Source of the DNA: Verrucomicrobiota bacterium
GTDB taxonomy: Bacteria; Verrucomicrobiota; Verrucomicrobiia; Chthoniobacterales; UBA10450
NCBI GenBank assembly: GCA_003218345.1
Contig: QHNF01000001.1
Location: 1-11,767 of the forward strand
Reading direction: 5' to 3'
DNA length: 11,767 nucleotides
A program made the translations under genes and the position numbers. The notes below the pieces were generated by a model. It saw only the letters and a program-made list of their open reading frames with translations. It was not told the origin of the DNA and made no database searches. Shown here piece after piece: positions 1 to 11,495 of this stretch (positions within the stretch are counted from its first letter, which is position 1; the number at the start of each line of letters is the position of its first letter).

Positions 1-73
1 CGACCGCATCCTCATCTTCCCAAATGATCTTCGCCGGAGTTTGCCGCGCGACGACTTTTTCGAAAATGGTCAT
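1..73 (-). CDS. HIT-family nucleotide-binding hydrolase (HinT-like), N-terminal fragment
   Basis: Only the first 24 codons are present; the gene runs off the left edge. The reading begins MTIFEKVVARQTPAKIIWED, which follows the characteristic HIT/HinT opening (xxIFxKIIxxExPAxxVYED). HIT proteins hydrolyse nucleoside phosphoramidates or dinucleotides with a C-terminal HxHxHxx motif, which lies outside the window and cannot be checked. The ATG at 73 is chosen because the family motif starts directly there; an ATG five bases upstream hits a stop after one codon. No clear Shine-Dalgarno sequence precedes it. It is co-directional with the upstream gene, about 100 bp away. Family assignment is fairly secure from the N-terminal pattern alone; the exact subfamily is not. 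Confidence 0.75.
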   Translation of the reverse strand, partial: MTIFEKVVARQTPAKIIWEDEDAV

Positions 74-177: not shown

Positions 178-738
178 TCAGCGCAGCGAGCAATCGAATC
201 GCGAAAAATCAGCAGCCGAACTTAATTTTTCGCGCACGAAGCAGACAATTTCCTCGCGCAGCGCGTCGCAGGCGCGCGTCCATGTTTTCACGCCGCGAAG
301 ATGCTTCACGCAAGATTGCAGCGAGCAAAGCTGGAGATTATCGGCGCCGGTCTCAATCAAAGTGCGAATTCGTTTTTCCAGAAGATCAAAAAACGCGAGT
401 TCGTATCCGGTGCCTGCATGGTGAGCGATGTCGAGGAGTGAGATGGAAATGGGCGGCGGCGAAGGCGCAAAATGAGGCACAATCTCTTTGTAACCGATGC
501 ATTTCAGGACGTATCGCACGGTCTGCGATAATTGGCTAAAGTCGATCACGTTTTCGTCATTTCTAAGATGGAGATAAAAGGCAATGCTTTCCGTAACGTG
601 ATCGGTTAGCCACCAACGAGGATAACCAGCCTCGTCGGCTGCCCGCGTAATCGCAGCGTGCAGCCAATCGCGATTGAACTCGAAGAGTTGCCCTGAATCT
701 GTGCGGAGATATGGAAATTCTTCCTTAAACGCGACCAT
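178..738 (-). CDS. Unnamed 186-residue protein with divergent ATP-cone-like N-terminal region, coupled to nrdR
   Basis: I do not recognise a named family over the whole length. Residues about 16-92 follow the layout of an ATP-cone: a basic/aromatic start (GQLFEFNRDWL), a helix AAITRAADEAG, then a V-x-E-S-I helix, and a final hydrophobic helix ending IGYKEIVPHFA. This parallels the neighbouring NrdR cone (FDRRKL, SIAKAFEK, DMVDEIV, IDEVAYLRYA). There is no CxxC zinc ribbon. Residues about 93-186 are a proline-rich linker and an apparently helical cysteine-containing tail (C138, C143, C157, C166, C183) with no motif I know. The ATG at 738 lies inside the last codons of nrdR, a 14-bp overlap, so translation is probably coupled. 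A role with NrdR or in sensing dATP/ATP is inference from position and resemblance; a wholly different function remains possible. Confidence 0.7.
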   Translation of the reverse strand: MVAFKEEFPYLRTDSGQLFEFNRDWLHAAITRAADEAGYPRWWLTDHVTESIAFYLHLRNDENVIDFSQLSQTVRYVLKCIGYKEIVPHFAPSPPPISISLLDIAHHAGTGYELAFFDLLEKRIRTLIETGADNLQLCSLQSCVKHLRGVKTWTRACDALREEIVCFVREKLSSAADFSRFDCSLR

Positions 739-1279
739 GATTTTTATTGATTGCGAGGTTGCGTGATTCGCCGGCGGGATTTTCTGCTGTCTCAGGCGGA
801 AACAATTCTCGCTGGAGCGTATTCGGTTTTACCCGACGCCCAAGAGTATGAATGGCATCTACAAATTGATCGACATCCTGAAACCGCTGGTACACGGAGG
901 CGTACCGCAAATAGGCCACTTCATCAATTCCGCGCAATTTTTCGAGCACTTTAGCGCCGATTGCCGAAGACGGAATTTCGCGCCCGCTCGTTTCAAGCTC
1001 GTGCACAATCTCGTCCACCATGTCTTCCAGGGTAATAAGACTGGTGGAACGTTTTTCAAAAGCTTTTGCGATGCTGGCGGTCAGTTTGCGCCGATCAAAC
1101 GGTTCATGGGTTCTGTTACGTTTCACAACGCGCAGGTCCGACCGCTCGATTTCTTCATAAGTGGTAAAGCGATACTTGCACGTAAGACATTCGCGGCGGC
1201 GCCGAATACTGGAACTATCCCGCGACTGACGGGAATCGATGACTTTGTCATCACGAGACCCGCACTTGGGGCAACGCAT
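725..1279 (-). CDS. nrdR: Transcriptional repressor NrdR
   Basis: NrdR represses ribonucleotide reductase genes in response to ATP/dATP bound in its ATP-cone. The 184-residue product starts MRCPKCGS and carries a zinc ribbon with C3, C6, C31 and C34. A basic DNA-binding stretch (RRRREC, CKYRFTTYEE) follows, then an ATP-cone over about residues 49-139 (VVKRN, EPFDRRKL, IAKAFEKR, YLRYASVYQRF). This is textbook NrdR up to about residue 150. The family is usually about 150-160 residues; here a roughly 30-residue polar tail overlaps the downstream gene by 14 bp. The ATG at 1279 is fixed by the conserved MxCPxC start. No Shine-Dalgarno sequence is seen. An NrdR box just upstream suggests negative autoregulation. 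Which reductase operon it controls is not visible here. Confidence 0.97.
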   Translation of the reverse strand: MRCPKCGSRDDKVIDSRQSRDSSSIRRRRECLTCKYRFTTYEEIERSDLRVVKRNRTHEPFDRRKLTASIAKAFEKRSTSLITLEDMVDEIVHELETSGREIPSSAIGAKVLEKLRGIDEVAYLRYASVYQRFQDVDQFVDAIHTLGRRVKPNTLQRELFPPETAENPAGESRNLAINKNHGRV

Positions 1280-1294
1280 AGTGTCAAAAAGCTA

Positions 1295-1322
1295 ATTACC
1301 ACACTATAAGTTGTGGCGTCAA
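1295..1322 (-). promoter_or_regulatory. Putative nrdR promoter with the operator in its spacer
   Basis: On the minus strand TTGACG (1322-1317) and GGTAAT (1300-1295) are separated by 16 bp, and that spacer is exactly the NrdR-box candidate. The -35 is good (5 of 6 to TTGACA) and the -10 is moderate (4 of 6 to TATAAT). The start of transcription would fall near 1288, giving a leader of only about 8-9 nt before the ATG, which fits the absence of a Shine-Dalgarno sequence. The architecture is inferred from spacing only. Confidence 0.4.
1301..1316 (-). promoter_or_regulatory. NrdR box
   Basis: The plus-strand sequence ACACTATAAGTTGTGG matches the published 16-bp NrdR-box consensus (acaCwAtATaTwGtgt) at 13 of 16 positions, counted by eye. 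The two outer half sites (CCACA/TGTGG, counting two flanking bases from 1299) form an inverted repeat. It lies 21 bp upstream of the nrdR start codon. NrdR boxes often come as pairs about 31 bp apart centre to centre; I found no good second copy at that distance. Confidence 0.75.
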
Positions 1323-5653: not shown

Positions 5654-6754
5654 CTATCCGAGCTTAACAAAATATTTTCCCGGCAGCTGTTTAACCAGAC
5701 GCTTCAGCTCAAGCCGAAGCAATGTCGATGAAACGGCTGCGCTCGGTAATTCCGTCTTCGCTGCAATATCATCAATCGATGTCTCAACTGCATCGATCGC
5801 GTCATAGATGCGGCGCTCTTCTCCGGAAAGCAATGGCAGTGGACGCACAGCGGCTTCCGGCAACGGCTTTGCTTCCGGCAAAAGAATTTGCAGATCATCC
5901 AGAATGTCATTGGCGTCCATGACCAATTTTGCGCCTTGCTGGATGAGACGATTCGATCCCATCGCGCTGGGCGCGTTGATATGTCCCGGAATGGCATAGA
6001 CCGAACGGCCTTGTTCGAGCGCCTGCGATGCGGTAATGAGCGCACCGCTATTCAGGCCTGCTTCCACCACGAGAATGCCGTGGCTCCAACCGGAAATGAT
6101 TCGGTTTCGCATCGGAAAAGTTTGACGGTCCGGTTCGATCTCCATCGAAAATTCGGACACAATCGCGCCATTTCCTGCGCGAATTTTCTCGGCAAGAGCG
6201 GCGTTCTCTGGTGGGTAAAGTTTCGCTAACCCGGAGCCGATGACTGCGATGGTGCGTCCCTTTGCGGCGAGCGCTCCTTGATGAGCCGCCGTATCGATGC
6301 CGCGCGCAAGGCCGCTGATTACGCTCAACCCCGCATAGGCAAGCTGATAAGCGAGCTTCTTTGCAGACTCCACGCCGTAATGTGTGGTGCGGCGCGCGCC
6401 GATAATGCCGATAGCGTGATGGTCGCGCTCTTCCAATTCTCCCCAAACGTAAAGCACAATTGGCGGCGCGTGGATCTCGCGCAGCGATTTGGGATATGAT
6501 GGCGATGCCTGTGTAATGACGGTGGCGCCGAAGTCGCGAATCCGTCCAAGCTCCGCCTCAAGATCGACAATCGATTCCCAGTCGCTAATCTGATCGGCGA
6601 CTTCACCGCCGATTCCTTCGACCTTGCGGAGCTCGCTGCGTTTCGCGGCGAGGATTTGTTGCGGTTTGTTGAATACCTCTAGTAATTTCCGCAGCCGCAC
6701 CGGGCCAACGGTCGGCAGCATATTGAGGGCGATGCAAGCTTCGGTCGCGTTCAT
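5654..6754 (-). CDS. dprA: DNA-processing protein DprA (Smf)
   Basis: DprA binds incoming single-stranded DNA during natural transformation and loads RecA onto it. The 366-residue protein is full length. Residues 5-58 form a helix-hairpin-helix region (LPTVGPVRLRKLLEVF, VEGIGGEVADQI). The Rossmann-like core runs from about 85 to 290 with IIGARRTTHYG (117-127), SGLARGIDTAAHQGAL (147-162), VIGSGLAKLYPPEN (171-184), FPMRNRIISG (213-222), VVEAGLNSGALITA (229-242) and AIPGHI (254-259). Residues 307-366 match the C-terminal winged-helix (DML1-like) domain. The ATG at 6754 overlaps the stop of the upstream PIN-gene remnant as ATGA, a typical coupling junction. A topoisomerase gene follows. Presence of DprA alone does not prove competence; no other com genes are in view. 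Confidence 0.97.
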   Translation of the reverse strand: MNATEACIALNMLPTVGPVRLRKLLEVFNKPQQILAAKRSELRKVEGIGGEVADQISDWESIVDLEAELGRIRDFGATVITQASPSYPKSLREIHAPPIVLYVWGELEERDHHAIGIIGARRTTHYGVESAKKLAYQLAYAGLSVISGLARGIDTAAHQGALAAKGRTIAVIGSGLAKLYPPENAALAEKIRAGNGAIVSEFSMEIEPDRQTFPMRNRIISGWSHGILVVEAGLNSGALITASQALEQGRSVYAIPGHINAPSAMGSNRLIQQGAKLVMDANDILDDLQILLPEAKPLPEAAVRPLPLLSGEERRIYDAIDAVETSIDDIAAKTELPSAAVSSTLLRLELKRLVKQLPGKYFVKLG

Positions 6755-7208
6755 TTCTTCGAGGCAAATCGCATGTGAAATTCCTGTGGAGTAATACGTG
6801 GAATGACAGCATGGCGATAATCCGCCACATTTCTTGTGACAATCAGATCGGCATTGCCAGGCCTCGCCGCCTTGACTTGCATGGCGTCTTCAAAATCGCT
6901 CATGCGCATCGTCAGCGCATGTCGCACGCTTTCGGTGCCACCGCTGGCGATGGCAGTGAAACTGAGTAGGTCGGCAACAAACTCTCGGCCCTTTGCATCA
7001 CTTCCGGCAACGCGAAGGATGTGATAGATGTTCGAGATCGTATGCCAGCAACCAGAGCTCCGCCTGGCGTTCGCTGGCACCATTCCACTACCGCGCTACT
7101 CTCATCGACGAAGGTCTTCCGACCGACCGCGACGTTCAAAAGAACATCGGTATCGACCAGAGTCTCCAACTGTTGTGAACGTACTTGTGCAACAGGTACG
7201 TTAGCCAT
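6751..7208 (-). pseudogene. PIN-domain ribonuclease (VapC-like), single-base frameshift
   Basis: Two overlapping frames together make one PIN protein. The first (start ATG 7208, or ATG 7289 for a longer form) gives ETLVDTDVLLNVAVGRK with the first catalytic aspartate pair, then VVEWCQRTPGGALVA. The second continues WHTISNIYHILR, MSDFEDAMQ and ADLIVTRNVADYR, which supply the later acidic residues. The break is at about 7046/7047: one extra base there would join ALVA directly to WHTISNIY. PIN toxins cleave RNA and normally pair with an upstream antitoxin. No clear antitoxin is present in the 130 bp to ssb, though the first frame opens with VPVAQVRSQQLE, vaguely like a VapB tail. The 3' end overlaps dprA by 4 bp. 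It is either a decaying toxin gene or a sequencing indel. Confidence 0.8.
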
Positions 7209-7339
7209 GGATTGGACGAATCGGGCCGCGGTTCCGTTGCGCGAAGCCTTTTGCACGCACAATTGCCTTGACTTCAGCTTTTCTTTCATTACACGCGCAT
7301 AATATTCGTAACACGCGTTGTCTTAAGATCGAAACGTGG
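7209..7339. other. ssb to PIN-gene gap, possibly an eroded antitoxin
   Basis: About 130 bp between the ssb stop and the likely PIN start. An ATG at 7289 is in frame with the first PIN segment, so a longer start is possible. In another minus-strand frame a GTG at about 7314 opens a 36-codon reading ending TAA over the PIN ATG. Its sequence (AEVKAIVRAKGFAQRNRG) is basic, and I do not recognise it. Either could be the remains of an antitoxin, but I cannot support a gene call. Confidence 0.3.
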
Positions 7340-10542: not shown

Positions 10543-11495
10543 ATGAATGCTGACCCCATCCGCATAGAACGTCCGACAACGAAATCCAGGCTGTTTGCGC
10601 ATACGCGCTGGGACGCTATTCCCGCTCTGGCTAGCTTTTTTCATCTGGCTTATTTCCTTGGGCTATTCTTCCTTTATCCCCACGCCCCGCTGTGGATAAT
10701 GCTGATTCTCGGATTCGTTTATTCGTTGATGGTAAACGCAAACATCAACGGGGTGGGGCACAATTTCATTCACAAAATCCGTTCTTCCGCTCAAAGCTTC
10801 TCAATCGCCTGTTTGGAGTCACTCAGTCGATCGCCTGTTGCTTTTCGCAGACCTACTACAATGCCGTGCACATGCAGCATCACAAAGGCAATGCCGACCT
10901 GCCAAATGAGAAGGGGGAGACGATCGATTGGATTTCCATTTATAAACATGGCCATGATGGCGAAGCGGAAAATCCCTGGAGTTATGTCTTCCTGAGTTTC
11001 TTTCGCGACGATATAGGCGCGATTCGCAGGGAGCTGCGCAAGCGAGGCAATAGCGATCTATTCTGGGGCAATATCGAGCTGGCAGCCTTTGCGGCCACGC
11101 TTTTCGGGATGTTCCTCTTCAACTGGCGCTATGTTATTTTCTATTTCCTACCGTTTTTCTATCTCGGTCACTGTTTCAGTTATCTTAACGGCTACTACCG
11201 GCATTACGGCGCGAATCCCGATAAACCGATTGCGTGGGGCGTAAGCAGCTACGGAAAAATCTACAACTGGCTCTTCTTCTACAACGGCTACCACGCCGAA
11301 CATCATTTCCGTCCGAAGGTGCATTGGACGAAAATGGAAAAATTTCGCCAGCAGATCTCCGAGCTACAAAAACAGGAAGGTGTTCATACAATCAAGCGGG
11401 CACACATGATCGGCTTTCTCGATCCCAATTTGCCGAAACGCGGCGAACGCGCGGCACATCTCGAATCCACCGCGGGCGAGCGATTCTCAGTCTGA
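10543..11495 (+). pseudogene. Membrane fatty acid desaturase, one single-base frameshift
   Basis: Read across two frames, this is a roughly 317-residue di-iron membrane desaturase with all three histidine boxes: HNFIH (H73, H77), HMQHH (H110, H113, H114) and HAEHH (H251, H254, H255). Hydrophobic segments at about 27-45, 49-67 and a long pair at about 179-213 fit the family. The frame breaks in the run CACAAAATCC at 10771-10780. With a fifth A the reading becomes GHNFIHKNPFFRSKLLNRLFG, the natural continuation. As given, frame 1 stops at 10995 and frame 2 runs to 11495. The break is in a short homopolymer and the rest is well conserved, so a sequencing or assembly error is at least as likely as a true lesion. 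Substrate (acyl chain or another lipid) is not known. Confidence 0.85.

Follow-up and report, generated by a model that had tools for sequence, protein, structure and literature searches.

A conserved protein encoded next to nrdR in Verrucomicrobiota with a predicted ATP-cone fold and a segment resembling the NrdD barrel

Why does a gene for an ATP-cone-like protein start within the last codons of nrdR, whose product carries an ATP-cone of its own? This question is raised by an open reading frame (ORF) in an 11,767-nucleotide stretch of DNA (the window), which forms the beginning of a contig (QHNF01000001.1, C160) of a Verrucomicrobiota bacterium of the order Chthoniobacterales (assembly GCA_003218345.1, 2.39 Mb, 81% complete). 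An earlier note on the window had described the ORF product as an ATP-cone-like orphan, translationally coupled to nrdR, that might act on NrdR or sense dATP separately. On balance we favour the view that it is a small, non-catalytic relative of the large subunit of ribonucleotide reductase (RNR) which serves as a regulatory partner, with NrdR as the leading candidate target. The features needed first are as follows.

178..738, minus strand: ORF, 186 amino acids, ATG start, pseudo-ATP-cone and NrdD-barrel-like domain according to the predicted structure
460..723, minus strand: N-terminal ATP-cone-like domain of the ORF, residues 6-93
181..453, minus strand: C-terminal domain of the ORF, residues 96-186, resembling a segment of the barrel of class III RNR (NrdD)
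725..1279, minus strand: nrdR, 184 amino acids, zinc ribbon and ATP-cone (Pfam, alignment)
725..738, minus strand: overlap of 14 base pairs (bp) between the nrdR 3' end and the ORF start

Conserved order of nrdR and the ORF

The overlap seen in the earlier note was borne out, positions 725 to 738 being common to both genes. The pairing reaches well beyond close relatives: of 70 loci examined in the order, 30 being the best matches and 40 hand-picked for spread, 69 have nrdR directly upstream of the ORF on the same strand, as do 38 of 40 further hand-picked loci (28 families; 37 loci outside the order and three diverged members of it, with start sites estimated by script). At the junction, the genes overlap by 14 bp in 32 of the 69 loci, all of them from the window's family, and by 4 bp in 22, while 15 loci have them 2-41 bp apart. 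In the further loci a 4-bp overlap occurs 16 times and the other distances lie between -47 and +155 bp.

A total of 1039 homologues at E ≤0.01 were found among 1095 candidates. Within the order, 173 of 197 genomes encode the protein (104 of the 112 good ones), as do 203 of 286 genomes of the class (E ≤0.01). Across the phylum 85 of 288 genomes gave matches (E ≤0.001); those outside the class are mostly matches to the N-terminal domain, and some are ATP-cones of true reductases. The named relatives listed are soil Verrucomicrobiota (Candidatus Udaeobacter, genomes of Chthoniobacterales/Spartobacteria); Chthoniobacter flavus (a metagenome-assembled genome) and Persicirhabdus sediminis also carry homologues, and Akkermansia probably does. 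The ORF is under purifying selection, with a median ratio of nonsynonymous to synonymous substitution rates (dN/dS) of 0.072 (20 of 29 pairs, nine pairs of unequal length being excluded) next to 0.057 for NrdR (26 pairs); both values are rough, since dS approaches or exceeds 1 in many cases. Given the number of homologues and the low dN/dS, the ORF is no chance reading frame.

Behind the ORF follows a third gene, of which the window holds the start:

1..73, minus strand: HIT-domain (HinT-like) gene, first 24 codons, truncated by the contig end, recognised from its homologue in locus L053

The complete copy in L053 matches Pfam HIT with E 5.9e-29. Clustering placed a HIT gene behind the ORF in 39 of 80 loci, namely the 40 hand-picked ones of the order and the 40 further ones. 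In the window's family, a motif recovered it in 27 of the 31 loci whose sequence extends far enough; two of the four motif misses, L054 and L055, belong to the clustered set. nrdR, the ORF and the HIT gene may well be transcribed together.

The two domains of the ORF protein

The neighbouring NrdR is canonical (Pfam Zn_ribbon_NrdR, E 1.1e-19; ATP-cone, E 2.8e-16). In the predicted structure of the ORF protein, residues 6-93 align with ATP-cones, and both the beta-hairpin and the helical cone typical of this fold are present. Profile comparisons agree with the model: the N-terminal profile matches the ATP-cone of the class I/II RNRs of the order with E 2.5e-4. The ATP-cone layout noticed earlier by eye over about residues 16-92 has thus been recovered, as has the absence of the zinc ribbon, the two CxxC motifs of the NrdR type giving no Pfam match in the 186-residue protein. 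Neither a confident match to an unrelated family, nor a model lacking the cone fold, nor an absence of the pairing in relatives was encountered.

Pfam ATP-cone (PF03477) was not matched by the window's protein up to E 10, the best match being DUF1627 (E 0.02). Among family members, 10 of 44 match PF03477 at E ≤1 and three of ten scanned singly exceed the gathering score (25.8 bits); NCBIfam RNR models match five of ten, exclusively within residues 10-105. Foldseek with the short form, as we call the 186-residue type, gave no match at E ≤0.001 (best 1.5e-3), and searching PDB sequences with the profile of the family yielded nothing notable (best E 0.33). The comparison of the ORF and NrdR profiles was weak as well (E 0.0046, probability 7.6%), and deeper NrdD and RNR profiles were required.

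According to the excerpts of PMC9110341 available to us, the inner nucleotide in S. coelicolor NrdR is touched by K50, R51 and E56 and the outer one by K62, and mutation of V48, K50, E56 or K62 impairs nucleotide binding. The four contact residues correspond to K53, R54, E59 and K65 of the window's NrdR and are retained in 32 of 32 NrdR rows of the alignment. In the ORF family, the counts of lysine or arginine at the positions of K53, R54 and K65 are 0, 1 and 0, both among the 43 rows at order level and among the 94 of the wider alignment. An acidic residue at the E59 position is found in none of the 43 and in 16 of the 94 rows. The K65 position is taken by W25 of the ORF, a tryptophan in all 43 order-level rows. 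Near-invariant residues of the wider family (n = 94) are W25 (76), E113 (94), W153 (94) and C157 (90). The hhalign register underlies these counts, because a plain MAFFT alignment of the cones misplaced the hairpin and set the start methionine of the ORF on NrdR position 51; that alignment was discarded. Judged from the aligned sequences, the ORF cone lacks the nucleotide-contacting residues. Thus, while the fold proposed in the earlier note and the conservation of the pairing are supported, the note's suggestion of a separate dATP sensor, taken as one working in the usual way, is unsupported.

The first reading had overlooked a second domain, which resembles part of the NrdD barrel. Following the ATP-cone, and in the same order, an ORF segment aligns with residues 438-578 of P. 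copri NrdD in both the predicted structure and the profiles (mapped onto P. copri NrdD with phmmer at 1e-3; a phmmer search with an NrdD at E ≤1e-50 gave no matches). The score of the C-terminal profile against NrdD was reached by none of 1000 column shuffles, and for all five NrdD lead sequences the best match fell inside the identical segment. The control comparison with class I/II RNR gave no match. The catalytic NRDD domain (PF13597) was not matched in the ORF protein by Pfam up to E 10. Descent of this domain from the NrdD barrel is well supported but not proven. We regard it as doubtful that an ATP-cone was instead fused to an unrelated alpha/beta domain with a chance-like resemblance to the barrel. 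This would fit the fact that VIA re-aligns only chains chosen by Foldseek, largely by their ATP-cone, and that, at the profile level, the C-terminal part of the longer relatives described below matches neither NrdD nor RNR nor the C-terminal domain of the short form; however, profile and structure arrive at the same NrdD segment by separate routes, and the shuffles, the five lead sequences and the control all speak against it.

The longer nrdR-linked proteins comprise about 310-330 residues, with Victivallaceae, Victivallales and Lentisphaeria among the listed names; one is labelled 'ATP cone domain-containing protein' and another 'transcriptional regulator NrdR family protein'. They share with the ORF the N-terminal domain (profile match E 7.6e-17) and the position directly downstream of nrdR (9 of 11 fetched loci) but differ from it by additional helices and strands in their central part. 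Some RNR large subunits can be aligned with the long form along its entire length and in the same order, over 193-218 residues. Where NrdR has K53, R54 and K65, the long form shows lysine or arginine in 2, 0 and 12 of 39 rows, counting the ten commonest residues per position.

Furthermore, a diverged gene follows nrdR in two families, f24 and f21 (L223, L226, L228-L236). It is kin to the ORF (hhalign E 4.7e-7), aligns with it only from about residue 41 and has no recognisable cone hairpin; a HIT gene stands behind it in 7 of 11 cases within the displayed stretch.

Candidate roles of the ORF protein

The oligomeric state of NrdR changes through its ATP-cone, and ATP-cones also control many RNRs, as stated in the available parts of PMC9110341. 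Since a cone made together with NrdR cannot sense nucleotides in the ordinary manner, the ORF product is most simply explained as a subunit of such oligomers. In the mechanism we propose, the row of nrdR, ORF and HIT gene would yield, in step with NrdR, a protein consisting of an ATP-cone stripped of its nucleotide contacts and a three-stranded piece of RNR barrel. It would act most likely by contact between ATP-cones: the nucleotide-blind subunit might enter oligomers of NrdR (first candidate) or of RNR (second), which its cone could dilute, cap or bridge, and thereby move the nucleotide threshold of their assembly. The RNR-like second domain might mimic a reductase surface. Physical contact with NrdR and an effect on its oligomers are what this proposal predicts. 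A more far-reaching version is tentative: the protein would be a dead and shrunken RNR, made with NrdR across much of Verrucomicrobiota, whose blind cone enters NrdR or RNR oligomers, and the series of sizes from about 325 residues through 186 to the forms without hairpin would record the decay of an active reductase.

Several observations weigh against a strict dependence on NrdR. In one genus (g107), a genome has the ORF and HIT gene intact on one contig and NrdR was not found in it (G427, L184), and in another nrdR is fragmented with stops next to an intact ORF (G300, L302). NrdR is moreover retained in 6 of 20 listed ORF-less genomes of the order. According to this, the ORF and NrdR are able to exist apart, albeit rarely. 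The ORF without NrdR in G196 and G065 reflects contig ends, and a further case, G121, is 71% complete. In the other 14 of the 20 ORF-less genomes (20 listed of 24) NrdR is missing too; this co-absence, in a count leaving out four ORF-less genomes and one NrdR-less genome, was not used as proof because assembly gaps remove neighbours together.

These exceptions also bear on an alternative that we consider unlikely, namely that the pseudo-cone acts on RNR instead of NrdR, capping or bridging RNR subunits through their ATP-cones and so tuning inhibition, with the nrdR linkage reflecting shared regulation. The survival of the ORF after nrdR loss in g107, its RNR-like domain order and the match of its N-terminal profile to the class I/II RNR of the order, present in 113 of 117 genomes, would agree with this. 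The gene order (69 of 70 and 38 of 40 loci) ties the ORF to nrdR, however, no RNR gene was recognised by eye among 28 displayed neighbour clusters, and the two genomes in question belong to a single genus.

An independent sensor of ATP, dATP or another ligand in an altered pocket, with an unknown target, is improbable: the retained fold and hairpin of the model, the aromatic W25 in all order-level members and the glutamate at the E59 position in 16 wider rows could be read in its favour, but the K53, R54 and K65 equivalents are lost family-wide and the diverged branch between nrdR and HIT lacks a recognisable hairpin.

Surrounding sequence and comparison with known systems

Two sites, one upstream of nrdR and one at its start, resemble NrdR boxes:

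1301..1316, minus strand: NrdR-box-like site, upstream of nrdR, 13 of 16 positions agreeing with an NrdR-box consensus
1269..1284, minus strand: second and poorer match to the box, 10 of 16 positions, located 32 bp further on across the nrdR start codon

Every one of the 33 loci scanned in the window's family has a pair at this place, with scores of 19-23 out of 32 and a spacing of 32 bp in 32 loci and 31 bp in one. In 25 of them, and in 29 of the 67 loci scanned overall, no more than 1 of 100 shuffles scored equally well; conservation of the second site proves little, because it overlaps coding sequence. No such pair was found in 28 of 34 scanned loci of other families. As the pair is family-wide here and mostly missing elsewhere, NrdR may regulate its own gene through these putative boxes in the window's family alone.

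Elsewhere in the window, a PIN_3-domain gene (6751-7289, minus strand) lies between dprA and ssb. Its downstream piece matches with E 3.3e-8 and its front part appears by eye in another frame (ORFs 6912-7289 and 6751-7083), suggesting a frameshift or sequencing error. A fatty-acid desaturase gene (10543-11495, plus strand; PF00487 E 2.3e-22 for the downstream piece) likewise seems by eye to be divided over two overlapping frames.

In the accessible parts of PMC9110341 and PMC12176259, ATP and dATP are sensed by the ATP-cone of NrdR itself, and a second sensor protein is not mentioned. Literature searches on NrdR or ATP-cones in Verrucomicrobia, on ATP-cones in Akkermansia and on RNR pseudoenzymes returned, in the partial records seen, nothing on this gene. 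With an ATP-cone protein co-encoded across most of the class, the NrdR sensor may be a two-protein device there. Compared to NrdR, the ORF protein has neither the zinc ribbon nor the conserved nucleotide-contact lysines and arginine, and carries an additional C-terminal domain. That an ATP-cone has long been retained without these contacts suggests that binding to other proteins is a function of the cone in its own right.

Like class III RNR NrdD, the ORF protein has an N-terminal ATP-cone followed by a segment matching part of P. copri NrdD. It differs in its 186 residues against roughly 600-850, with most of the barrel missing, Pfam NRDD unmatched and the glycyl-radical end, judged by length, absent. 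To our knowledge, dead RNRs are known only in herpesviruses. If the C-terminal domain is derived from RNR, the ORF would encode a bacterial RNR pseudoenzyme. In the more far-reaching version above, this inactive copy would take part in controlling the gene and the activity of RNR itself.
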